A DNA stretch of 37,103 nt from Spirochaetes bacterium ADurb.BinA120 (GTDB lineage: Bacteria > Spirochaetota > UBA4802 > UBA5368): NCBI GenBank assembly GCA_002069125.1, contig MVZN01000026.1:1-37103 (forward strand). The letters are read 5' to 3'. The notes beneath the pieces are model-generated. The model did no database searches, had not been told where the DNA came from, and saw nothing but the letters and a program-made list of their open reading frames with translations. A program made the position numbers and the translations under genes. Positions within the stretch are counted from its first letter, which is position 1. Each line of letters opens with the position of its first letter. Positions 1,293-16,697 of this stretch are shown here, one piece after another.

Positions 1293-3164
1293 CTAAAGCC
1301 CTATGCGATGATGTTCCTTCTGTACGCGCTCGCACCAGTTTCCGACGTTCCAGTCCCCAAATACGCCCATTCCGCCAAGCTCGTCCCCGCCGCCGTATAC
1401 CGGCACATGCACAACGGAAAGCCCGTCGTGCCCGCGGGCCATTTCCAGGGCCCCGCGCAGGGCATCGATCGACCTGCCGCCGTGAATGCCGAGCACTCCG
1501 CGCACGGAGCCCGCCATCTCGGTGTAATCCACCTCCACCGAGTCAGCCGTTTTGTATTCCCTGGCGTACTGCGCGCCCTGCAGGCTGGAAATGGCGGCCA
1601 TCCTGCGATTGTCGAACAGCACAATGCATCCCCGTACGCCGTGCTGAACCGCGTCAATTAGTATCTGGGGATTCATCATAAAGCTCCCGTCTCCCGAGAA
1701 GGCCACGGGATAAAACGGCCGCTCCGACAGGGCCGCCGCAAAAACCGCCGACACGGCAAAACCCATGTACGAGGCGCCCGTATCGGTGAAGGTCTGTCCT
1801 TCGCGCACATCCTCCACTATCTGAAACCCGTTGGCCTGAACATCGCCGGCGTCGAAGAGTTTAACCGCTCCTAAAGCGTCCGCCCATTCGCACACGGCCT
1901 TGATTGCGGCCGGCTGGGTCAGAACCTCCGACTGCCATGCCTCGTCATAGAGCGTCGGGTTCTTATAGCGCTTTTTTTTGAACGCCTCCCACTCGGCGCG
2001 TTTTTTGAAAATGGCCCCGGCCCAATCCGAGGAGCCGTCGGCACGGCGAACACCCTTTCCTTTCAGATGATCGATCCAGGCGCGCAGGTTCGCCTTTGCG
2101 TCACCCAGTATTGGGAGGGTCCGGTTGTAGTGTCCCGCATGCTGCGGATCGATGTTGAAGTTGATGATGCCGGCCGCCTTCTTCCAGGCCGTTCCCGAGC
2201 AGTCCCACTGGCACACCGCGCGGGCTCCCACGACGACAACCAGGTCGGCTTCGTTCATGGCGTAATTCCCGCAGATGGAGCCCTTCGAGCCGCCTACCGT
2301 CATGTAGCGGAGCTCCGTGTACGGGACTATCCCTGTCGCGCTCGGTCCGCCAACGATTGCCGCGTCGAGGAGGCCGGCAAGCTCGACAAGCTCCGGTCCG
2401 CAGCCCCGCGCCCCCTGCCCTATTTTGATGGTAACGCGCCTGGCGCCCGCCGCAAGCTCGCTTGCCCGCTCGTAGACGGAGCTGTCGGAGCACGAGGGCG
2501 CCACCGCCCTGAAAGCGCCCGGAAACTCGAGAAGGTTGCAGGATTCGATAATCGCCGGCTGCGCGTTCATGGGCGCAAGAAGAAAAAATGGACCGGCGAA
2601 GCCCGCCCGGCCGGTGTGTATGGCTCCTCGCCGGAGCGCGGTGAAAATTGAATGCGGCTCCTGCAGCGAGTACGCGCCCCCCATAAGCCCGGCAAGCTTT
2701 AGAAACTGGTATTGCTCGTCGCGCGGGATCTGCTGCATGTTGAAGCCCTCGTCGTGCGTGGTCTCGTCGCCGTAGATGTGGTACACGCCGGCGCCGTTGG
2801 AGGCCGCACAGAGAGACCCGGCGAAGGCGTGCATGGCCCCGGGTCCGATCGAGGTGATGACCGCGGCGGTCTCGCCGGTCAGAATCTTGAGGGCAGTTAC
2901 GGCATGCGCGGCCGCGGTCTCGTGGCGTACGTTCCAAGTCTTAACGAGTCCCGCCTCCTCGTAGACCCTGAGCGCCTCGGCGATATCGGTCGTTCCATGG
3001 CCGAATATGCCCACATATTTTTTGACGCCCTGGTTTAATAGCCCCAGCACTATAGCCTCGGAGAGGGAGATGTCCTGAAACCGCTCCAGGGCCCCGGCCT
3101 CCACCGCCGCCGCGATGGATCCGTGTCGTGCAATGGCTTTAGCGCGTTCATCTCTATGCTTCAT
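1293..3164 (-). CDS. IolD-like thiamine-diphosphate-dependent enzyme
   Basis: This 623-residue protein has the three-domain layout of ThDP enzymes of the acetolactate synthase/IolD group. The activating Glu is about residue 82 in NVRHETAAAH. The ThDP/Mg motif starts with GDGS at about 491 and ends at DN near 518. GIFGHG near 52 and a TSIGPG segment resemble IolD, the hydrolase opening the ring of trihydroxycyclohexane-1,2-dione in myo-inositol breakdown, and the length also fits IolD (about 620-640). It is last in the leftward operon, 16 bases after the RpiB-like gene. No classical iolB, iolC or iolE is visible, so the true substrate may be another cyclic or branched diketone, or a 2-keto acid. 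A GAGG Shine-Dalgarno precedes the ATG. The family is clear; the exact reaction is not. Confidence 0.85.
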   Translation of the reverse strand: MKHRDERAKAIARHGSIAAAVEAGALERFQDISLSEAIVLGLLNQGVKKYVGIFGHGTTDIAEALRVYEEAGLVKTWNVRHETAAAHAVTALKILTGETAAVITSIGPGAMHAFAGSLCAASNGAGVYHIYGDETTHDEGFNMQQIPRDEQYQFLKLAGLMGGAYSLQEPHSIFTALRRGAIHTGRAGFAGPFFLLAPMNAQPAIIESCNLLEFPGAFRAVAPSCSDSSVYERASELAAGARRVTIKIGQGARGCGPELVELAGLLDAAIVGGPSATGIVPYTELRYMTVGGSKGSICGNYAMNEADLVVVVGARAVCQWDCSGTAWKKAAGIINFNIDPQHAGHYNRTLPILGDAKANLRAWIDHLKGKGVRRADGSSDWAGAIFKKRAEWEAFKKKRYKNPTLYDEAWQSEVLTQPAAIKAVCEWADALGAVKLFDAGDVQANGFQIVEDVREGQTFTDTGASYMGFAVSAVFAAALSERPFYPVAFSGDGSFMMNPQILIDAVQHGVRGCIVLFDNRRMAAISSLQGAQYAREYKTADSVEVDYTEMAGSVRGVLGIHGGRSIDALRGALEMARGHDGLSVVHVPVYGGGDELGGMGVFGDWNVGNWCERVQKEHHRIGL

Positions 3165-3180: not shown

Positions 3181-3807
3181 TTAAAGCGATTTTTTGATCG
3201 CGGCCCTAAGGTCCGCGTCCGCCAGCGTGTCGGGGTCGAGCGTTTCCATGACGCCCGGAAAAGAGAGGACCGTTTTTACAATGATCGGATCGAGGAGCGT
3301 CAATATCTCCACCATGCTCCGGTGCGTCCTTTTCGAAATTTCGAAAAGGGTCCTGCGACTCTCGCGTTGCGACTCCTGCCTGTGGGCGGGGTAGCCTATC
3401 CCCGGCTCGACGCTGAAGATACGGTCGAAGATAAACCGAAAGTTTACATCGCCCGCCCAGCCGAACTGATATAGCATTGGAAGCGAGATACAGTTGCCCC
3501 CGTTTATCTGGGTAAAGACCCAGGCGGACACCGGATCCGCAATAAGACCGCAGACTATATTCGGATACTGCATTACCGAGTTGAGGAACCCGAGCCCAGT
3601 GCCGCATCCCCCGACCACGTACTCCACCCTGCCGGAGTTTAGGAGCAGAGCGGCCAGAAGCCCCGTGTGGATATAGGTTAGCTCCGGCGAGCCCCCGGTC
3701 TTCGTCATCCCGGCGTTAATAAGCTCGTGCCCCCTGCCGTCGAGCGCCGCCATCACGTCGGCGTTTCGGTCGCCCGCGCTTGTTTCGTTTATCACCGCTA
3801 TTTTCAT
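3181..3807 (-). CDS. RpiB/LacAB-family sugar-phosphate isomerase-like protein
   Basis: The 208-residue protein opens with MKIAVINE and carries GGCGTGLGF at about 65-73 followed by GLIADPVSAW. This matches the RpiB/LacA/LacB fold, where the Cys of GCGTG is the catalytic base in many members. Typical RpiB is about 150 residues. Here an extra C-terminal region of about 60 residues (from roughly 145) is rich in Arg and charged residues, as seen in some divergent members linked to polyol catabolism. It sits between the DUF849 and IolD-like genes, so an aldose-ketose isomerisation of a pathway intermediate is likely. The ATG is preceded by GGAGAAGGC. The family call is firm; ribose-5-phosphate as substrate is not assumed. 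Confidence 0.8.
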   Translation of the reverse strand: MKIAVINETSAGDRNADVMAALDGRGHELINAGMTKTGGSPELTYIHTGLLAALLLNSGRVEYVVGGCGTGLGFLNSVMQYPNIVCGLIADPVSAWVFTQINGGNCISLPMLYQFGWAGDVNFRFIFDRIFSVEPGIGYPAHRQESQRESRRTLFEISKRTHRSMVEILTLLDPIIVKTVLSFPGVMETLDPDTLADADLRAAIKKSL

Positions 3808-3946: not shown

Positions 3947-4774
3947 TCATCCCATCCCCAGTATATTTCGCGCCTCGTCGGCCGTGGCGACCTCCCTGCC
4001 AAGCTCGCGCGCGAGGCGCACCACGCGCTCCACGAGCTGAGCGTTCGATTTAGCGGGCTCGCCCCTGCGGTACATCACGCAGTCCTCGAGCCCGGTCCGA
4101 GCGTGGCCGCCGGCAAGGATCGCCATTGTGTTCATTGGAAGCTGCGCGCGGCCTATGCCGGAGACGTTGAAGACGGCGCCCGGCGGGAGGTGTTCGATCA
4201 TTTGCACAAGGCCCTTAATGGTGCCGGGATACCCGCCCATGCCGCCCACCCCCATGACGAAGTTGATGTAATACGGCCTGGACAAAAGATCGTGTTTTAT
4301 GAGGTTTTCGACCTCGCCGAACATTGAGGGATTGTACACCTCCATCTCGGGCTTGATTTTACGCTCCAGCATGGCGGAGGCGAACGCCTCGATCTCGGAG
4401 CGCAGATTGATGAATGGAAGCTCCTTCCCCTGGTGGAAAAAGACCACGGAGCCCATATTGAGCGAGGCCATCTCGGGGGAGGCGTCGAGGCTCGTTATGC
4501 GTTTGTCTATGGGAAGCCCGGGGCCGCCCGTGGTATTCTGTATGATTACGCCGCACCGCGAGCGGATGCCATCGTTCATCTCGCGGAAAATGCGCGCGTC
4601 CGCGACCCCCTTTCCGGAGCGGTCGCGCGCGTGCAGATGCACGACCGCCGCGCCCGCCTCATGGCAACGGACGGCCTCGCGGATGATCTCGTCGGGCTGT
4701 TCGGGCAGGGCCGGGTTCGCCTCTTTGCCGTGTATGCCGCCGGTGAGGGCGGCGGTGATTATCAATTTGTCCAT
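3947..4774 (-). CDS. Beta-keto acid cleavage enzyme (BKACE/DUF849 family)
   Basis: These enzymes are TIM-barrel, Zn-dependent and condense a 3-keto acid with acetyl-CoA to give acetoacetate plus a new acyl-CoA; Kce of lysine fermentation is the founder. The 275-residue product shows VHLHARD with the two metal His residues (about 46 and 48), IQNTTGGPG, and the C-terminal GIGRAQLPMNTMAILAGGH followed by TGLEDCVMY, all diagnostic. The start was set at ATG 4774, behind GGGGGAAGAG; the open frame extends further upstream to 4879, but that would overlap the preceding gene and lacks family similarity. It lies 34 bases after the acyl-CoA synthetase gene, consistent with a pathway in which the acyl-CoA product feeds that synthetase in the ATP-forming direction. 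The substrate keto acid is unknown. Confidence 0.92.
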   Translation of the reverse strand: MDKLIITAALTGGIHGKEANPALPEQPDEIIREAVRCHEAGAAVVHLHARDRSGKGVADARIFREMNDGIRSRCGVIIQNTTGGPGLPIDKRITSLDASPEMASLNMGSVVFFHQGKELPFINLRSEIEAFASAMLERKIKPEMEVYNPSMFGEVENLIKHDLLSRPYYINFVMGVGGMGGYPGTIKGLVQMIEHLPPGAVFNVSGIGRAQLPMNTMAILAGGHARTGLEDCVMYRRGEPAKSNAQLVERVVRLARELGREVATADEARNILGMG

Positions 4775-4808
4775 CTCTTCCCCCATTTGGCGCGCGTTGG
4801 CGCTATGC

Positions 4809-6935
4809 CTACGCGCGGTTCGCCGCGAGCGTCTTTCCCCATTGCGCCAGGGCCGAGGCGGCCGCCACCCATCGCGCAACGTCCGGATATACCGGTATGC
4901 CCCGCCGGCGCAGGGCGTCGGACATCCTTAGGGTGTAATCTCCTCCTGCCGCACAGCATACGATGGGCTTGGCGCGAAGCCCCCCGAGCGCCGCGAGGCG
5001 CTCCACGATGCTCTCGTCGAGCGGTGTGTCCTGAAACACGAAAAAGGGCATGATGATGTCGACGGCGTCATCGTCCATCAGTGTCTTTACCACGTATTCG
5101 TAGTCCGCCGCCGTCGCGGATCCTGTTACGTCGACCGGGTTTTCGACGAGATAGAAAAAGCTGAAATGATCGCGCATGGCCTTTACCGAGTTCCGTCCGA
5201 GCCTAACCAGCTCCAGCCCCTTTCCGGGAAAGTGGTCGAGCGCGTTCACCATGGGCCCGGCCCCGTTGGAAAGCATCGCCGCCCGGTTGCCGCGCGCCGG
5301 GGGCTGCAGCGCGAGGGCCTCGCACGAGGCATACAGCTCGTGGAAGGAATCGGCAAGCACCACGCCGTGCTGCCGCATCACCCCCTCGTAGACCCGGTAG
5401 CTCCCCCCATAGGCCCCGGTGTGCGAAACCGAGGCCTGTGCCGACTGGCGTGTGCGCCCGGTCTTGAAAACGACCACCGGTTTTCCGGCCTCTATGGCGC
5501 GCCTGGAGGCCTCTAAAAACTTCCTTCCGTCGCCCAGGCCCTCGATATAGCTTCCGATTACCGAGGTTTCCCTGTCCCCGGCCAGATAGGCCACCAGATC
5601 TCCCTCGTCGACATCCACGCGATTGCCGTAGCTCACCATCCTGGAAACGCCGGTGATGTACGCCTCCTCCAGAAAGACGCATCCCCATGTGCCGCTCTGG
5701 GTGATGAAGCTCATAGGGCCCGCGGGCGGCCGGCTTAGGCGCTCGTGGCTGTGGAAAAAGGAATCGAAACGGCTCTTACCGTCGAACGAGCCTATGCAGT
5801 TGGGACCGACCAGCCGTATGCCGAGCGCCCTCGCCCTGGAGGCTATTTCGCCCTCCAGTTTCGCCCGCTCTCCGCCAAGCTCCTTGCCTCCTCCGGAGAC
5901 GATGAGCGCGTTTCGGCACCCGAGTCTCGACATCTCGTCGAGCAATTCCGGCGTACGTGCAAGATCCACCACGATTACGACGAGCTCGGGCGGTTCCGGA
6001 AGCGACGAGAGGTCGGGATAGCTTTTAAGCCCCATGAGCTCTTCGTAATGGGGGTTTACCGGATATACCCTGCCGGCGTACTCGTAATTGACGAGGGAAT
6101 CGAGTATGACGTTTCCGATCTTTCCCGGCGTCGACGAGGCCCCCATCACCGCGACCGAGGCCGGTGTAAAGAACGCTGACATGCCCTCGGTACGAGGCAT
6201 TTCGCTACGGAGTCCGGACTCCCCCTCCTTCGGGAGGACCATCTTGGCGTCGACCGCGACCACCCCCGAGGGTCCGGCTATTATCGGATTGAAATCAACC
6301 GAGCCGTAGAGCGGCGCGGCTTCCAGCCCCAGAGCGGCGATACTCTCAACCGCTTCGATCAGGGCGTCCATATTTACGGCGGGCGATCCCCTGTATCCTC
6401 GAAGGAGGGAGGCCCCCTTAAGGCCGTCGAGCATTGCCCGGATATCGTCGCGCGCCACAGGGAGGGCCCCGAACGCGACGTCCTCGAAAACATCCGTAAA
6501 CACCCCGCCGAGTCCAAGCATGAGTAGCGGCCCGAACACCGGATCATTCTGCAGTCCGGCGATTATCTCCGTACCCTCTTCGGCCTGTTCCTCGATTAGG
6601 ATTCCAAGATAGCCCGGCACCCCCTGCTTAAGAAATCTCTCGTGCATCTCGTCGAAGCTTTCGAGGAGCTCTCCTTCCGAGCCTATGCCGGTCCGAACGC
6701 CGCCCAGTTCGGTTTTATGCAGGACCGAGTCGGAGGCGAGCTTCAGCACCAGGGGATACCGTAACGACTTCGCGGCGGCGGCGGCCCCGTCGCGGTCCGC
6801 ACATAGCAAGCCCCTGGGGACCGGAACGCCGTGCGCGGCCAACAGCGCCTTGGTCTCGTGTTCGGGAACGGCAAGCGCGCCCTTCCTCGAGAGTTCCCCG
6901 CATCGCGAGGCGAAGGACTTCATAAGCTCACGCAT
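4809..6935 (-). CDS. NDP-forming acyl-CoA synthetase (acetate-CoA ligase, ADP-forming type)
   Basis: This 708-residue single-chain enzyme interconverts acyl-CoA + ADP + phosphate with acid + CoA + ATP. The order is beta-type ATP-grasp first (about 20-235; VLKLASDSVLHKTELGGVR, GTEIIAGLQNDPVFGPL), then a CoA-binding Rossmann domain (about 250-345; SVAVMGASSTPGKIGN) and succinyl-CoA-ligase-like domains (from about 385; ITQSGTWG). The phospho-His lies in SHTGAYGG. Archaeal ACD splits the subunits and many bacterial fusions place alpha first, so the beta-first order is noteworthy. Its ATG overlaps the cupin stop by 8 bases, indicating translational coupling. In this operon it probably conserves energy from the acyl-CoA made by the neighbouring BKACE. 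The acyl specificity cannot be read from sequence. Confidence 0.93.
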   Translation of the reverse strand: MRELMKSFASRCGELSRKGALAVPEHETKALLAAHGVPVPRGLLCADRDGAAAAAKSLRYPLVLKLASDSVLHKTELGGVRTGIGSEGELLESFDEMHERFLKQGVPGYLGILIEEQAEEGTEIIAGLQNDPVFGPLLMLGLGGVFTDVFEDVAFGALPVARDDIRAMLDGLKGASLLRGYRGSPAVNMDALIEAVESIAALGLEAAPLYGSVDFNPIIAGPSGVVAVDAKMVLPKEGESGLRSEMPRTEGMSAFFTPASVAVMGASSTPGKIGNVILDSLVNYEYAGRVYPVNPHYEELMGLKSYPDLSSLPEPPELVVIVVDLARTPELLDEMSRLGCRNALIVSGGGKELGGERAKLEGEIASRARALGIRLVGPNCIGSFDGKSRFDSFFHSHERLSRPPAGPMSFITQSGTWGCVFLEEAYITGVSRMVSYGNRVDVDEGDLVAYLAGDRETSVIGSYIEGLGDGRKFLEASRRAIEAGKPVVVFKTGRTRQSAQASVSHTGAYGGSYRVYEGVMRQHGVVLADSFHELYASCEALALQPPARGNRAAMLSNGAGPMVNALDHFPGKGLELVRLGRNSVKAMRDHFSFFYLVENPVDVTGSATAADYEYVVKTLMDDDAVDIIMPFFVFQDTPLDESIVERLAALGGLRAKPIVCCAAGGDYTLRMSDALRRRGIPVYPDVARWVAAASALAQWGKTLAANRA

Positions 6936-7338
6936 CGCTCGCTTCCCGGGCAGCCTGCGCCGCCCTTACGCTTTCCATTATATAGGACGTATCGATTGAC
7001 GGTACGAATATACACGCAATCCTTACGGGCTCGCTTCCCGTGTTCATTGTCTTATGCTCTACACCCGGTGGCGCGTACAGCGCAGTTCCGGGTTTAAGCT
7101 CGTATTCCCGTCCTTCCATATATGCCTTCCCCTTTCCGGACATGATGATCATAAGCTCACCCGAGATGGGATGGGAATGGAAATCGGTGCAGCCGCCTTC
7201 CGGCGCGAGAATGGATTCGAGAAGCGAGAAGCCCTTGACCTCGGGATTCGTGTCGGGCGACATGATGACCTTTAGTTCCCTTTCGAACGGCCTGTCAACC
7301 TTTGCCGAAGGGATTTCGTTCATATCGACTATCGGCAT
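6928..7338 (-). CDS. Cupin-domain protein, first gene of the leftward operon
   Basis: A single-domain cupin of 136 residues. The metal-site motif is HSHPISGELMIIMSG (two His and a Glu), followed by APPGVEHK, which supplies the third His. Single-domain cupins of this size act as small isomerases, dioxygenases or binding proteins in sugar and aromatic catabolism. It is too short to be the bicupin IolB. The start was set at ATG 7338, preceded by AAAGGGGGTGGG; the frame stays open to 7428 but that extension looks non-coding and approaches the promoter. It leads the operon and overlaps the synthetase gene by 8 bases. The reaction is unknown. Confidence 0.85.
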   Translation of the reverse strand: MPIVDMNEIPSAKVDRPFERELKVIMSPDTNPEVKGFSLLESILAPEGGCTDFHSHPISGELMIIMSGKGKAYMEGREYELKPGTALYAPPGVEHKTMNTGSEPVRIACIFVPSIDTSYIMESVRAAQAAREASDA

Positions 7339-7444
7339 AATCCCACCCCCTTTGCCGCGCCGGCTCGCGGCGCGGAAACTATCAATTGGCGGCATGACGG
7401 CGCTTAGGATTCCGAGCTGCCTGAGCACCGTAATTGTATTGCGT

Positions 7445-7664: not shown

Positions 7665-8426
7665 ATGGGAGCTACAATTCAATCACTCGAGCGCGGCCTG
7701 GAGATAATTGGCGTAATAGCGCGTGCGGGACGGCCTCTATCCCTTACCGAGATATCGGAGAGCTTTACGATCGACCGTTCCTCCGTGTTCAGGCTGCTAA
7801 GCACGCTCGCCAAGCACAGCTTCGTTCTTCAAGATCCGGACACCAAGCGCTACTCGCTTGGATACCGAATGCTGGAATATGCAGGGCTATACGGCGAACA
7901 GTCCAATGTGGAGGGCCTCATACGGCCCATCATGCGGCGTGTGCTCGTCTCCACAAGGCAAAACACGCACCTTGCCATACTCGACGGCCCCGAGGTGGTA
8001 TTTATCGCCGTAGAGCAGCCCAAGGAGCATATCTCCCTCAACCTCTCCGTGGGAATGCGCGAGCCATCCACGGTAACGGCGCTTGGGAGGGCCCTTCTGG
8101 CCTTCAGCGATCAGGACATTGTGGATAGCGCGCTTTCGGCGGCCGACTACCGCAGATATACCGACAAGTCGCCGCGCTCCGCCAGGGAAGTGATGCGCTC
8201 GCTCGATGTGGTGAAAACCCGAAGGCTTGCGGTGGACGACGGGGAATACAGGAAGGGCATCATTTGCTACGCCTCGCCGGTGCTCGATCACCGCAAGCGG
8301 GCGGTCTATTCGATAGGAATCTCCGGCCCGGCCGATCTCATCAAGCCCCATGCCGAGAGTTACGCCGAGACGGTCCGCGACGCGGGAATGGAGGCGTCGC
8401 TTCTCCTGGGCTATCCGCAGGAATAG
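7665..8426 (+). CDS. IclR-family transcriptional regulator
   Basis: This 253-residue protein starts ATIQSLERGLEII, the typical IclR opening, with a winged helix-turn-helix in residues 1-65 (LSLTEISESFTIDRSSVFRLL). The C-terminal GAF-like effector domain follows from about 80 to 250 and contains STVTALGRALLA and GIICYASPVLDHR. It is divergent from the cupin-to-IolD operon and probably senses that pathway's substrate or an intermediate. No Shine-Dalgarno is visible, but the N-terminus matches the family so well that the start is trusted. It ends 3 bases from the convergent histidine-kinase gene. Confidence 0.93.
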   Translation: MGATIQSLERGLEIIGVIARAGRPLSLTEISESFTIDRSSVFRLLSTLAKHSFVLQDPDTKRYSLGYRMLEYAGLYGEQSNVEGLIRPIMRRVLVSTRQNTHLAILDGPEVVFIAVEQPKEHISLNLSVGMREPSTVTALGRALLAFSDQDIVDSALSAADYRRYTDKSPRSAREVMRSLDVVKTRRLAVDDGEYRKGIICYASPVLDHRKRAVYSIGISGPADLIKPHAESYAETVRDAGMEASLLLGYPQE

Positions 8427-11027: not shown

Positions 11028-12524
11028 CTAAAGGCCGAAAACGTCCCTCAGCCTGAGGCCCTCTTCGGCTTTGCCCTCCAGCTTCAGCTTGCCCTGAATC
11101 AGCGCCATCTCGATGCGCTTCTTGCCGAGCAGAATGGCGGCCCATACACCGGCCTCGGCCTTTACGACCAGGATGGCGTCCGTCGGAACCGTGCCACGGC
11201 TCAGGCTTGCCGCTCCATCTTTGACCTTCAAGGTGAACGCCTCGTCGGCGCACCCTCCGTCCGCCAGCAGTTTAAGCCCTATTACGGTATTCCATCCGGC
11301 GGCGCGGTCCGCGTTGAAGCGTTCCATAAGCCCCTCTGTTAGCTCGATGGCCCTTGGAGCGTAGCTCGAGTAGCTGCCTCCTCCGAAAAGGCCAACGCGC
11401 TTTTTGCGGCGGGGATTGGCCCGTATACCGGCGCGCCTCTTTCTGAACGCAAAAAGAGAAGGGAAAAACGAGTCCATCTCGTCCACATACACCTCGCGTC
11501 TGAGCATCGCCGAGCGCTGGATGGCGAGATCCAGTCGAAGCATCTCCCTGCCCGCCTCCCCCGAAAGCAGCGGCTCTTCCTCGCCCCTTATCGCGGCGAT
11601 AAAATTCCGGGTGGCCCCTATAAATCCCTCGCTCCAATCGGATTTGATATTAGGATAATTTTTCCATCCCTTTCCGTTGAAGACGCTCAGCGGTGGACCG
11701 GAAAGCACGTTTCCGGTGCATCGATTTATTAGCGCCATGCCGCGCGTGCCGGTTATCTCGAACCATTCATCGTTTCCGTAGTATCTGGATGGGATGTGAA
11801 GGTCCGCCGCGTGCGCGTAATCGCAGCTTCCATATCTGACGCCGCCCTCGCACTTCCACATGATTACCGCCGGTGAATCGATGACGCCGTCGATCGAATC
11901 GATCCAGCTTGCGACACGCTCGACCCTGCCCTGCAGGTAACTGGCCGCGGACCACAGGTGGTGCCCATGATCGAAGGTCTGCATGGGGCGCCCCTCCATG
12001 CTCTCCTTTAACCGCCACTCCCAGGCCGAGGGAGGCACCGGCCAGCCGCCGCTTCCTCCGCTTATGAATTTTATTCGCATATTGTTCGGATCGCCGATCT
12101 CGCCCGCGTCTATCATCTTTTTGGCGAAGACTATCGGCGGATAGAACAGATAGTTATCGGTAACGCGGAAAACCTTTCCCGAAGACCGAACGGCCCTAAG
12201 CATGCGGTCGGCGCTCGCCAGGTCGATCGTCATGGGCTTCTGTAGCGCGATGTGCTTGCCGGCGCGGGCAGCCTCGATCACCATCTCCTCATGCAGAACC
12301 TGCGGCGTCAGAATTTCGACGGCATCCACGGAGGCATCGGCCAACAGCTCGCGGTAATCCGAATACGATTTTTCGGCCCTCCATTCCTTTTTACGGCGCT
12401 CCCTGATCTCATCGTTGGAATCGCATACCGCGTACACCCTCGCCTTGCGGTTGTTTTTGTACCCGGGGTAGTGAAGGTCCGCTATTCGACCGCATCCGAT
12501 TATTCCCACGTTGATGGTGCTCAT
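11028..12524 (-). CDS. Gfo/Idh/MocA oxidoreductase fused to an SCP2-like lipid-binding domain
   Basis: Residues 1-125 form the NAD(P)-binding Rossmann domain (NVGIIGCGRIADLHYPGY; EILTPQVLH; the catalytic-type Lys in IALQKPMTID). Residues about 130-365 form the alpha/beta substrate domain (TFDHGHHLW). At 498 residues it is about 130-150 longer than a usual family member. The final hundred or so residues (roughly 398-498; ERFNADRAAGW, VKDGAASLSRG, LLGKKRIEMALIQGKLKLEG) read like a sterol carrier protein 2 domain, which binds lipids or acyl-CoAs in a hydrophobic tunnel. The joint at about 370-395 is Arg/Lys-rich. It may oxidise a hydroxyl or polyol group on a hydrophobic or CoA-linked substrate. 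It is divergent from the enolase-superfamily gene. The two halves are in one continuous frame. Confidence 0.88.
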   Translation of the reverse strand: MSTINVGIIGCGRIADLHYPGYKNNRKARVYAVCDSNDEIRERRKKEWRAEKSYSDYRELLADASVDAVEILTPQVLHEEMVIEAARAGKHIALQKPMTIDLASADRMLRAVRSSGKVFRVTDNYLFYPPIVFAKKMIDAGEIGDPNNMRIKFISGGSGGWPVPPSAWEWRLKESMEGRPMQTFDHGHHLWSAASYLQGRVERVASWIDSIDGVIDSPAVIMWKCEGGVRYGSCDYAHAADLHIPSRYYGNDEWFEITGTRGMALINRCTGNVLSGPPLSVFNGKGWKNYPNIKSDWSEGFIGATRNFIAAIRGEEEPLLSGEAGREMLRLDLAIQRSAMLRREVYVDEMDSFFPSLFAFRKRRAGIRANPRRKKRVGLFGGGSYSSYAPRAIELTEGLMERFNADRAAGWNTVIGLKLLADGGCADEAFTLKVKDGAASLSRGTVPTDAILVVKAEAGVWAAILLGKKRIEMALIQGKLKLEGKAEEGLRLRDVFGL

Positions 12525-12865
12525 TTACGAACCTCCTTTTAAAGCCCGGGTATTTAGGGCGCGAGCCTACCGAAACGCTTATCCGATAAGCCATACCAGC
12601 CCCGCTCCCCTGAACAGAGGCATCCAAGGGAATGCCGCCACTATTCATGTTGTGCAATATAATTGTATAATACGTACACCGTCTGTCAACCATAATCGCG
12701 CATGTTCCTTGATTTTTACCGCCCGCCGCGCAGGCGGACCAATCCCTTTTTGCCTTGGATATGACAGCATCGAATTTGCGGGGGGCATTACGGCGATTTT
12801 TTGCTTTTAATTCATCCACCCTGCCCGCATTATGTTCGGAAATCGATACATCACCGGGGAGCGTT
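12525..12865. other. Divergent intergenic region
   Basis: 341 bases between the oxidoreductase and enolase-superfamily starts. Besides the minus-strand promoter at 12662-12689, an AT-rich core lies around 12650-12680. A clear plus-strand promoter is not evident. The open frame running into the downstream gene from 12755 lacks family similarity before 12866. Confidence 0.5.
12651..12689 (-). promoter_or_regulatory. Promoter of the oxidoreductase-SCP2 gene, with a motif copy
   Basis: Minus strand TTGACA (12689-12684), 16-base spacer, TACAAT (12667-12662). Directly downstream, TATTGCACA (12659-12651 on the minus strand) differs by one base from the TATTGCATA motif in the IclR region, so the same regulator may act here. 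Confidence 0.55.
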
Positions 12866-14038
12866 ATGAACCATACGAGAATAGTCCGAATCGATCTCAC
12901 GCCGCTCCATGTACCCTTTCATAAACATATTCGCGAGTTGATGTCCGGCTCCGAGGGAGGACTGGGAATGGCCATCCCCGCCGAGGAGGAATGGCTCGGG
13001 GGCGACTTTGTCGTCTGCGCGCTGCACGACGAGGAGGGGCGCGTCGGTTGGAGCGAGGTCTTCGTATGGCTTCCGGAGACCGGCGCCTCGCCGGCCCAGA
13101 TTGTGGACATCATCGCCGGATCGCTTTCCCGCTATGTGCTTGGAGAGAGCCCGTTCAATGTCGAGCGAATTGCCCATCGCATGGAGTCGAACGTGGCGCG
13201 AAGCGAGGCCGCCAAGGGTCTCCTCGACATGGCCTGTTACGACCTTGCGGGGAGGACCGCCGGGCTTTCCGTCTGCGAGCTTGTGGGCGGCCCGTCCGTG
13301 CGGGAGGTCCCGCTCTGCGCGCTCATCCCGCTGATGGACACCGATTCGATGCTCGGGATAGGCCGCATGTTCTTCGACGAGGGTTACCGCTCTTTCAGGC
13401 TGAAGCTCGGCACGGGCCTCGATGAGGACGTGGAGAGGATTCGGGCCTTCCGCGACGCCTTCGGCTCCGGCATACGGCTTCGAGTGGACTACAACCAGGC
13501 CTACAGGCCGGCGGATGCCGTCCGCGCCATCAAGGCCATCGAGCCGTACGGAATCGACTTTGCCGAGCAGCCGGTAGCCGCGGCCGACTTTGCAGGGATG
13601 GCATACATACAGCGACTGGTGGATACCCCGCTCATGGCCCACGAGGGCTGCTTTTCGCTTGGGGACTTTATCGCGCTCGCCGACCTCGGCGCGGTGCGCC
13701 TGCTCGGCCTTAACTCCGAGCGCCCGGGCGGGCTTACCATGGCGCTTAAGGCGATCGCCGTTGCCGAATCGCGCGGGATGGGCACGGTGATACACAACCA
13801 GCCTCTTGGCCTCGCCTCCGCCATGCACCTGCACCTGGCCGCCGCCCGCTATCACTCGCTTGGCCACGCCGTGGAGCTATTCGGCCATATCATGATGGAG
13901 GACGATCTAATCGTTACGCCTATAGATTACTCCGGGGGAAGGGCGCTTCTGCCCGACGGCCCCGGCTGGGGCGTCGAGGTCGACCTCGACGCCCTGGAGA
14001 GATACAAAACGGCCGAAACCACCACCCTAACGGAGTGA
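12866..14038 (+). CDS. Enolase-superfamily enzyme (mandelate racemase/muconate lactonizing group)
   Basis: The 390-residue product has the N-terminal capping domain (about 1-130) and a TIM barrel. The three metal ligands appear as Asp208 (VDYNQ), Glu234 (FAEQPV) and Glu260 (AHEGCF). The usual second-strand Lys-x-Lys is Arg178-Leu-Lys180 in FRLKLG. On the sixth strand the expected Lys or Asp is replaced by Asn (LNSERPGG, Asn283). His310 in VIHNQP occupies the place of the mandelate-racemase His. Members use an enolate intermediate for dehydration, racemisation or cycloisomerisation of carboxylates; an acid-sugar dehydratase or racemase role is plausible but unproven. The start was set at ATG 12866 with GGGGAG ahead. 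The amidohydrolase gene begins 6 bases after the stop, so they form a two-gene operon. Confidence 0.88.
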   Translation: MNHTRIVRIDLTPLHVPFHKHIRELMSGSEGGLGMAIPAEEEWLGGDFVVCALHDEEGRVGWSEVFVWLPETGASPAQIVDIIAGSLSRYVLGESPFNVERIAHRMESNVARSEAAKGLLDMACYDLAGRTAGLSVCELVGGPSVREVPLCALIPLMDTDSMLGIGRMFFDEGYRSFRLKLGTGLDEDVERIRAFRDAFGSGIRLRVDYNQAYRPADAVRAIKAIEPYGIDFAEQPVAAADFAGMAYIQRLVDTPLMAHEGCFSLGDFIALADLGAVRLLGLNSERPGGLTMALKAIAVAESRGMGTVIHNQPLGLASAMHLHLAAARYHSLGHAVELFGHIMMEDDLIVTPIDYSGGRALLPDGPGWGVEVDLDALERYKTAETTTLTE

Positions 14039-14044
14039 CCCGAT

Positions 14045-15652
14045 ATGGCCGAAAACGAAAAGCTCTACTTCAACGGCGACATCTACACTGTGGATGAGAA
14101 CCATCCCACGGTTGAAGCCGTTGCCGTGGCCGACGGAATTATTGTCTCGGCCGGAAGCCTTTCCGAATGCGAGAGGGCACTCGGTGCCGATTGTAAGATG
14201 GTCGACCTCGAGGGCGCGGCTATGCTTCCGGGATTCATCGACACGCACCTTCATCCGGTCCTCATGATTTACTTCGACATGAACGTCAATCTGATCGGCC
14301 TGTCCTCCATGGCCGCGCTTCAGGAGGCCCTGAGGAAAGCCGCCGGTGAAAAGGCCCCCGGAGCATGGTTGATAGGCCTTAACTTCGACGAGCAAAACCT
14401 CGACCGGCCAGTGCTTCCCACGAGGCACGACCTCGACAGGGCCTGTGCGGACATTCCAGTAATAGTAGTCAAGCACGACGGCCACATGCTGATCGCAAAC
14501 ACAGCCGCCATCGAAGCCGGAGGCGTAAACGCCGAAACGCCCGACCCGCCAGGAGGAGTTATCGACAGGGAGGCCGATGGTTACCCCGCCGGCCCTTTCC
14601 GCGAAAACGCCATGGCCCTCATCCTCGCGAAGATGCAGCTTCCGACAGAGGACGACTTTGCCGGGGCTTCAGTTAAGGCTTTCGGCCGGCTCGCATCTTA
14701 CGGCATCACCTCGGCCGGTGTCGTTCTACAAACAGGCGGCGAAGGGCCCGCCGGGGACATAGGCGCCTTCGACATACCGGTGCTCCAGATGCTATCGGAG
14801 AGCATTCCCATCTCCATGTACGGGCTTATCATCTCCTCCGACCCTGAAGGCGCCGGCTCCATGCTCGTTCCGCCGCTTCACGCCGACGGCCCGGGCCCCA
14901 CGCGCCGCATGGGCGCGATAAAGCTCTTCTCAGACGGGACCTTCGCATCGTGTACCGCCTTCATGCGTGAGCCCTTTACGGACCAGCCGGACAAATCCGG
15001 CTTTATGGTAATCGAACCGGAAAAATTATACAGGAGGATGGAGTCGGCCCATCTGGCAGGATTCCAGATCGCCATCCACGCCATCGGCGACGCCGCTAAC
15101 AGGACCTGTATAGACCTGTACGACCGCCTGCTTTCCCGGCACCCCCGAATCGACCACCGGCACAGGCTGGAACACGCTTCAATACTGGATCCTGAAATGA
15201 TTGCCGACGGAAAGCGCCTCGGGCTTGTGGTCTCCTCCCAGCCGCTTTTCATTCACTCGGAGAAGCTCTGGCTTCATAAACGCTTCGGCCCTAAGCGCTC
15301 CAAATGGATTTACCCCTATCGCTCCCTCATCGATTCGGGAGTGGTGCTCGCCGGGGCGTCCGATGCACCCGTGGAGTCGGCGGACGTTCTGCACGCCATC
15401 CAGTGCTGCGTTACCCGCGAGTGCTTCGAGACGCAGGAGGGGCTTAGCGCAGCTGAGGCCGTAAGGCTTTACACCATCAATGCGGCCTACGCCCAGTTCG
15501 AGGAAGCCATAAAGGGAAGCATAACCCCCGGCAAGAGGGCCGACCTTGTACTCCTCGAAAAAAATCCGGTGCGGGTTGCCCCGGAGGAGATATCCAAAAT
15601 TCGGGTGCTGGAAACGATAGTCGGAGGGAAGACTATATACTTAGCGAGATGA
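14045..15652 (+). CDS. YtcJ-like metal-dependent amidohydrolase (Amidohydro_3)
   Basis: This 535-residue protein hydrolyses C-N or lactone-type bonds at a mono- or binuclear metal site. The strand-1 HxH is FIDTHLHP (His68, His70). Further ligands appear in AIHAIGDAAN, HRHRLEHAS and AGASDAPVES, the last giving the conserved Asp. The C-terminal segment (SITPGKRADLVLLEKNP) is the small beta-sandwich typical of the family, and the length fits YtcJ-like proteins. No signal peptide is seen, so it is cytosolic. It is translated 6 bases after the enolase-superfamily gene, whose last codons supply the GGAG. The pair may act on an N-acyl or lactone substrate followed by an enolising step. The family is sure; the substrate is unknown. 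Confidence 0.92.
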   Translation: MAENEKLYFNGDIYTVDENHPTVEAVAVADGIIVSAGSLSECERALGADCKMVDLEGAAMLPGFIDTHLHPVLMIYFDMNVNLIGLSSMAALQEALRKAAGEKAPGAWLIGLNFDEQNLDRPVLPTRHDLDRACADIPVIVVKHDGHMLIANTAAIEAGGVNAETPDPPGGVIDREADGYPAGPFRENAMALILAKMQLPTEDDFAGASVKAFGRLASYGITSAGVVLQTGGEGPAGDIGAFDIPVLQMLSESIPISMYGLIISSDPEGAGSMLVPPLHADGPGPTRRMGAIKLFSDGTFASCTAFMREPFTDQPDKSGFMVIEPEKLYRRMESAHLAGFQIAIHAIGDAANRTCIDLYDRLLSRHPRIDHRHRLEHASILDPEMIADGKRLGLVVSSQPLFIHSEKLWLHKRFGPKRSKWIYPYRSLIDSGVVLAGASDAPVESADVLHAIQCCVTRECFETQEGLSAAEAVRLYTINAAYAQFEEAIKGSITPGKRADLVLLEKNPVRVAPEEISKIRVLETIVGGKTIYLAR

Positions 15653-16029: not shown

Positions 16030-16278
16030 ATGGACACAAAGTTAACATTAAAGCTGAATAAAAGCATTATTGAAAAGGCAAAGACGTATGCACAGAAAAA
16101 TAATACAAGTTTGTCTCAAATTGTTGAAAAGTATTTTATTGCTTTAATTACAGAAAAGGAAAATGAAACCTTAAAATTAACCCCACTTGTAAAAGAGCTT
16201 TCTGGAATTATAAAACCGGAAAATATTGAAAACTATAAAGATGATTATGCAAAATATTTGATGAAAAAGTATAAATGA
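16030..16278 (+). CDS. DUF6364-type antitoxin
   Basis: An 82-residue protein starting MDTKLTLKLNKSIIEKAK, a short beta-strand followed by helices as in ribbon-helix-helix antitoxins. The segment AQKNNTSLSQIVEKYF is typical of the DUF6364 family that partners PIN toxins. The start was set at 16030 because GGAGG lies at 16020-16024; the open frame begins 7 codons earlier. Its stop overlaps the toxin start by 4 bases (ATGA), a standard coupling in such pairs. It is strongly AT-rich compared with the genes on both sides, a sign of horizontal origin. It probably binds the palindrome upstream. Confidence 0.88.
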   Translation: MDTKLTLKLNKSIIEKAKTYAQKNNTSLSQIVEKYFIALITEKENETLKLTPLVKELSGIIKPENIENYKDDYAKYLMKKYK

Positions 16279-16697
16279 AGAAAAATATATTTATCGATTC
16301 CGATATTATTTTGGACCTCTTGGCAAAGCGAGAGCCATTTTACCATCATTCTGCTTCTTTATTTTCGCTTATTGATTCTGGAAAGTTGCATGGTTTTGTC
16401 TCATCATTAATATTTTCAAATCTCTTTTATATACTTCGAAAACATAATTCCAGAAAACAAACAGTTGATATACTCACAAAATTACGAATTATGGTTTCGA
16501 TTCTTCCGGTTGATGAGAAAATAATTGAGCTTGCCTTATTGTCTAATTTCAATGATTTTGAGGATGCGATTCAGTATTATACCGCTAAAGCACATAAAAT
16601 TGATTATATTGTCACACGAAATTTAAAAGATTTTAAAACATCAGACATTAAAGCATTAACTGCGGATCAATTATTACATATCTTACACAATACTTAA
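16275..16697 (+). CDS. PIN-domain ribonuclease toxin (VapC-like)
   Basis: The 140-residue protein begins NIFIDSDIILDLL, carrying the first catalytic Asp (Asp8) of the PIN fold. The conserved SNLFYILRK follows near 48. The acidic NDFEDAIQYYTA near 92 and the closing VTRNLKDFK complete the PIN_3-type signature. Such proteins cleave RNA, often tRNA, using Mg2+. It overlaps the antitoxin gene by 4 bases. It shares the antitoxin's low GC. All expected acidic residues are present, so it looks intact. Confidence 0.9.
   Translation: MKKNIFIDSDIILDLLAKREPFYHHSASLFSLIDSGKLHGFVSSLIFSNLFYILRKHNSRKQTVDILTKLRIMVSILPVDEKIIELALLSNFNDFEDAIQYYTAKAHKIDYIVTRNLKDFKTSDIKALTADQLLHILHNT

Follow-up and report, generated by a model that had tools for sequence, protein, structure and literature searches.

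A conserved SCP2 tail on a Gfo/Idh/MocA dehydrogenase encoded within or beside carbohydrate-type gene clusters

Introduction

The SCP2 fold is a lipid carrier in animal cells and is also found fused to enzymes. MFE-2, SCPx and HSDL2, which belong to enzyme families other than the one considered here, act in lipid or acyl-CoA metabolism, and the SCP2-like tail of the alkylsulfatases is thought to bind the alkyl chains of the substrate. Fused SCP2 domains have so far mostly been tied to lipid or acyl-CoA substrates; here, we describe one on a sugar-type dehydrogenase. The gene lies in a 37,103-nucleotide contig of Spirochaetes bacterium ADurb.BinA120 (assembly GCA_002069125.1, contig MVZN01000026.1), the whole of which is referred to as the window.

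An earlier note on this DNA, made from the sequence alone, had read residues 398-498 or so of the encoded protein as an SCP2 domain on a standard oxidoreductase, an architecture that it held to be not a common one, and had called for a profile search of the C-terminal region, a structure prediction and a search for the same architecture in other genomes. We present evidence that the protein consists of a whole Gfo/Idh/MocA dehydrogenase (residues 1-352) and, on a variable linker behind it, a genuine SCP2 domain (residues 389-498, approximately). The fusion combines two known kinds, and among the papers accessible to our literature search none mentioned SCP2 and Gfo/Idh/MocA in one protein, in keeping with the earlier note, or described SCP2 used in sugar catabolism. 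The tail is an addition conserved among the carriers, and the genes inside or beside which the fusion lies are of the carbohydrate rather than the fat type.

Results

Domain organization of the fusion protein

The open reading frame and its parts are as follows (residue numbers are those of the protein).

11028..12524, minus strand: Gfo/Idh/MocA-SCP2 fusion gene, 498 amino acids, stop codon at 11028-11030
12530..12539, minus strand: Shine-Dalgarno sequence AAAGGAGGTT, about 7 bases 5' of the ATG, from sequence inspection
12162..12515, minus strand: NAD-binding Rossmann domain, residues 4-121 (PF01408, GFO_IDH_MocA, 1.2e-24)
12234..12242, minus strand: QKP motif, residues 95-97, in which K96 is the counterpart of the lysine in the family's usual EKP
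11496..12125, minus strand: Gfo/Idh/MocA C-terminal alpha/beta domain, residues 134-343 (PF22725, PF02894 and fold match)
11958..11975, minus strand: FDHGHH motif, residues 184-189, in which D185 and H189 align with the family's conserved DxxxH
11361..11468, minus strand: variable linker, residues 353-388, a helix and then about 10 residues with pLDDT below 50
11031..11360, minus strand: SCP2 domain, residues 389-498 (Pfam, profile searches and fold matches)

On inspection of the sequence, the ATG start is preceded, about 7 bases upstream, by a strong Shine-Dalgarno sequence, AAAGGAGG. The protein possesses both the Rossmann and the C-terminal alpha/beta domains of the family, the latter matched in Pfam by PF22725 (GFO_IDH_MocA_C3; residues 134-264, 5.8e-11) and PF02894 (residues 135-343), as well as the catalytic lysine and the DxxxH, with glutamine replacing glutamate in the EKP-type motif. 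The core (approximately residues 1-352) matches solved Gfo/Idh/MocA enzymes with VIA Z scores of 32-38 (top 37.6), among them scyllo-inositol dehydrogenase, levoglucosan dehydrogenase and TM_0414 at Z 35-36. Against the IolG equivalog model TIGR04380 the protein scores 110.2 bits, below the required 355, and is therefore IolG-like but not IolG by the NCBI standard; the levoglucosan dehydrogenase equivalog NF052479 gives 101.5 bits, below the required 650.

The QKP motif with K96, the FDHGHH motif, and D185 and H189 within it are invariant in the alignment of all 23 fusion proteins, and QKP is also found in relatives lacking SCP2 (genomes G436-438), while outgroup paralogues mostly have EKP. 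The roles of K96, D185 and H189 we take from established knowledge of inositol dehydrogenases, and their invariance suggests that the fusion enzyme is probably catalytically active. A full-length AlphaFold2 model (mean pLDDT 88.9, pTM 0.71) presents two confidently predicted domains whose mutual position is uncertain: residues 373-382, within the linker, have pLDDT below 50, and the tail is left unfixed relative to the active site. The earlier note's suggestion that the tail delivers substrate to the active site thus draws no support from the model.

The tail is an SCP2 domain

In Pfam, PF02036 (SCP2) matches residues 405-496 at 3.7e-7, its 30.9 bits exceeding the curated cut-off of 21.3. SCP2 profiles match all 23 aligned fusion members (E values up to 1 accepted; best 3.1e-12), and a profile built from 20 of the tails retrieves solved mammalian SCP2 chains by sequence at 3e-10. 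Modelled alone, the tail has a pLDDT of 95, and DSSP assigns it the order of elements of the SCP2 fold: a helix, a four-strand sheet, two helices, a fifth strand and a C-terminal helix. The model matches SCP2 folds at Z 11-16 overall. Its nearest solved folds are the SCP2-like C-terminal domains of PisA1 (2yhe, Z 15.8) and SdsA1 (2cfu, Z 14.8), followed by human SCP-2L (Z 14.1) and rabbit SCP2 (Z 12.9); the Eis acetyltransferases are more distant (Z about 9). The identification of an SCP2 domain in the earlier note is therefore borne out by Pfam, by the tail profile and by the modelled fold, and only its start at residue 398 was placed slightly late, since the first SCP2 helix begins at about residue 386-389 in the models. 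That the tail might belong to the normal oxidoreductase fold is ruled out, because solved Gfo/Idh/MocA enzymes align to about residues 1-352 only and the tail on its own is SCP2.

Across the whole source genome there are four PF02036 matches, two of them over the cut-off, one of which is the fusion itself. The three other SCP2-like proteins (L001, L003 and L004, on contigs C46, C20 and C112) comprise one 138-residue open frame above the cut-off and two below it.

Distribution and conservation of the fusion

When the architecture was sought elsewhere, about 24 genomes, belonging to at least two named phyla, proved to encode the fusion. Scanning public genomes yielded six full-length relatives of 40-78% identity, five from Spirochaetes and Myxococcota metagenome-assembled genomes and one from an unplaced bacterium. 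Whole-genome searches placed the fusion in 18 of 393 Spirochaetota genomes, one copy running off its contig within the tail, in three of five genomes sampled from the phylum of the Myxococcota carrier, and in three of 52 from the phylum of a third carrier. An apparent loss of the tail in G007 was rejected, as the contig ends there.

Among the fusion members, mean pairwise identity is 57% for the core, 43% for the tail and 24% for the linker. Between closely related members, dN/dS ranges over 0.06-0.12 in the core, about 0.05-0.18 in the tail and, for the pairs in which it was computable, 0.10-0.27 in the linker; the tail, with values like those of the core, is thus maintained by selection. The tree built from the dehydrogenase core would fit a fusion that arose once, although the branch in question is weakly supported (68/14).

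Genes surrounding the fusion

The following genes of the window recur near fusion genes in other genomes.

1293..3164, minus strand: IolD-like TPP enzyme, a conserved partner
3181..3807, minus strand: RpiB/LacAB-type isomerase, a conserved partner (PF02502 and NF006753, over cut-off)
3947..4879, minus strand: beta-keto acid cleavage enzyme (BKACE; PF05853, 1e-93), a partner in some clusters
4809..6935, minus strand: acyl-CoA ligase (NDP-forming type), a partner in some clusters
6928..7428, minus strand: cupin protein, a partner in some clusters
7665..8426, plus strand: IclR-type regulator, kept in several clusters
12755..14038, plus strand: enolase-superfamily enzyme (mandelate racemase / muconate lactonising type), true start perhaps downstream of 12755; a divergent neighbour in close relatives only

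The IolD-like TPP enzyme is encoded near the fusion in 13 of 23 loci, within the stretch fetched. The clusters of relatives hold an RpiB-type isomerase with either BKACE, CoA ligase and cupin or an IlvD-type dehydratase, together with IclR regulators. The dehydratase, of the L-arabinonate dehydratase type, takes the place of CoA ligase and BKACE, both absent from the stretch read, in L059, L060 and L064, and is accompanied by an aldehyde dehydrogenase in L060 alone of these three. Neither CoA ligase nor BKACE is found in the Myxococcota loci read. Among the 393 Spirochaetota genomes, which are related to one another, the TPP partner occurs in 16 and both it and the fusion in 14. With the thresholds applied, seven carriers (G006, G136, G164, G185, G393, G394 and G401) have no TPP partner, so a carrier need not possess the module.

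In 12 of the 23 loci, a gene for a GPH-type symporter lies at most one gene away from the fusion; these comprise some Myxococcota loci that have nothing else of the module, although no such gene adjoins the fusion gene in the window. The L048 copy exceeds the curated cut-off for the GPH:cation symporter (sugar transporter) family and is about equally similar to melibiose permease (5.5e-41) and to MFSD2A (2.2e-39).

Several further features of these neighbourhoods were observed. In the close relatives L005, L006 and L061, the enolase-superfamily enzyme and an amidohydrolase (12755-15652, plus strand, in the window) are divergent from the fusion, where they perhaps take the place of IlvD. In G035, genes for a reductase of the male-sterility type and an AMP-binding ligase (L048:3915-6926) immediately precede the fusion; this is the sole neighbourhood with clear lipid-type genes. 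Finally, a 140-residue open reading frame at 16275-16697 (plus strand) of the window resembles a lone PIN-domain nuclease and may be toxin-like.

Homologues of the core without SCP2

Core homologues of about 360 residues without SCP2 are encoded in three genomes reached via L010 (G436-438) and on Labrenzia plasmids (FIV03_RS28145). Their gene order is IclR, Gfo, TPP enzyme and aldehyde dehydrogenase, followed by IlvD in G436 and Labrenzia, where the contig extends; in Labrenzia, carbohydrate ABC transporter genes adjoin the IclR gene. No separate SCP2 gene was found near the G436-438 copies (L065-L067). These homologues in an equivalent operon indicate that the tail is not required for the equivalent pathway, but they are only 34-37% identical to the fusion core and may therefore use a different substrate. 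On two plasmids, from Salipiger and Phaeobacter, the TPP enzyme, aldehyde dehydrogenase and IlvD genes are accompanied by other dehydrogenases in place of Gfo.

A cassette of IolD-like TPP enzyme, aldehyde dehydrogenase (annotated as succinate-semialdehyde type), IlvD dehydratase and IclR regulator recurs from Alphaproteobacteria plasmids to Spirochaetota (L105, L107, L108, L065, L059, L060, L064 and, in the window, 1293-3164), with exchangeable first dehydrogenases and transporters. A literature search found no paper on a Gfo/TPP/IlvD operon or cassette. The loci sketch a modular pathway for the breakdown of carbohydrates or sugar acids, with a TPP enzyme, an aldehyde dehydrogenase and IlvD, in which lineages differ in the dehydrogenase used first.

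Discussion

Judged from gene content, the module most likely serves carbohydrates or sugar acids: the TPP enzyme, RpiB, BKACE, IlvD and the GPH symporter all point in this direction, as do the operon homologues without SCP2. BKACE is employed in deoxyribonate catabolism (PMC6365646), and so is by itself no indicator of fat metabolism; a search for a connection between inositol and BKACE in the literature found nothing. The earlier note had suggested a hydrophobic or CoA-conjugated substrate, in line with the acyl-CoA chemistry of the nearby operon, a view that we do not find supported, since the partners are of the carbohydrate type and the CoA enzymes are replaced by IlvD elsewhere. Fusion clusters without CoA enzymes, together with SCP2-less homologues beside carbohydrate ABC genes, make a CoA-conjugated or obligately lipophilic substrate unlikely.

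The explanation that we tentatively prefer, at somewhat less than an even chance, is that the SCP2 domain is an accessory, flexibly tethered to a carbohydrate dehydrogenase and perhaps binding lipid or membrane near the symporter. The core would use NAD(P) to oxidise a hydroxyl group of a carbohydrate-like compound, and the SCP2 domain, predicted to bind a lipid or other amphiphile, would be dispensable for the chemistry itself; once bound to lipid, it could hold the enzyme at the membrane near the symporter that imports the substrate, or report the lipid state. Since no GPH symporter adjoins the fusion in the window, this membrane tether is not derivable from the window alone. We consider it doubtful, though worth entertaining, that SCP2 serves here as a lipid-dependent membrane anchor beside a sugar symporter, or as a pocket for the lipophilic part of amphiphilic glycosides. 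Counting against an accessory role, the fused SCP2 domains of MFE-2, SCPx and the alkylsulfatases usually serve an amphiphilic substrate.

The main rival modifies the idea of the earlier note: the substrate would be an amphiphile other than a CoA conjugate, for example a lipid-linked cyclitol or a glycoside whose aglycone is lipophilic, and SCP2 would bind its hydrophobic part while offering the polar part to the dehydrogenase. The tail's likeness to those of PisA1 and SdsA1, the latter also solved with dodecanol, is in its favor, and the solved relatives include DgpA, levoglucosan dehydrogenase and sulfoquinovosidases, some Gfo/Idh/MocA enzymes accepting bulky glycosides; the symporter, moreover, resembles MFSD2A, which transports lysophosphatidylcholine. 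We nevertheless find this role unlikely, as homologues without SCP2 hold the equivalent operon, the partner enzymes belong to the sugar-acid type, the tail has no fixed place over the active site in the model, and the symporter passes the curated cut-off for GPH sugar transporters.

Next in rank is a purely structural role, in which the SCP2 fold would, by analogy with the C-terminal domain of Eis, support oligomerisation or cap the active site of the subunit next to it without any lipid. Gfo/Idh/MocA enzymes function as oligomers (PMC9795676), the fold search did find the SCP2-like domains of Eis, and purifying selection acts on the tail. A long, variable linker with pLDDT below 50 would, however, be unusual for a rigid oligomerisation element, and the likeness to classical lipid-binding SCP2 (Z 14) is far above that to Eis (Z 9); we regard this role, too, as improbable.

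That the dehydrogenase acts on an acyl-CoA produced by the adjoining CoA ligase is very improbable: BKACE and acyl-CoA ligase do share the cluster with the fusion in the window and several relatives, but both are missing from the stretches read of L059, L060 and L064 and from the Myxococcota loci. The chance that an assembly, frame-shift or sequencing error joined two genes is negligible: nothing was found in favor of such an error, and it is ruled out by full-length homologues in about 24 independent genomes, by the lack of internal stops in relatives of 40-78% identity, and by purifying selection on both parts.

The relatives without SCP2 in the equivalent operon are a natural control for what the domain adds to the enzyme.

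Comparison with known systems

With TM_0414 (3ezy), levoglucosan dehydrogenase (6a3f-6a3j) and scyllo-inositol dehydrogenase (5yab), the fusion has in common the two-domain core (Z 35-36, 25-28% identity) and the catalytic lysine and DxxxH; it differs by QKP in place of EKP, by its FDHGHH signature and by an additional, linker-borne SCP2 domain (about 110 residues). Literature searches on TM0414 and on SCP2 in alkylsulfatases found nothing. The alkylsulfatases PisA1 (2yhe) and SdsA1 (2cfu) likewise possess an SCP2 fold C-terminal to the catalytic domain, but there it follows a metallo-beta-lactamase-type hydrolase of alkyl chains, whereas in the fusion it follows a sugar-type dehydrogenase on a flexible linker. 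In MFE-2 (HSD17B4), SCPx and HSDL2, SCP2 is also terminal on an oxidoreductase or thiolase, and the tail profile matches SCP2 down to 3e-10; the fusion is set apart from these by its carbohydrate-gene neighbours. Labrenzia FIV03_RS28145 and the G436-438 proteins resemble the fusion in operon logic and in the QKP signature (checked in G436-438), but at about 360 residues they have no SCP2 tail, and Labrenzia carries upstream carbohydrate ABC genes rather than a GPH symporter.
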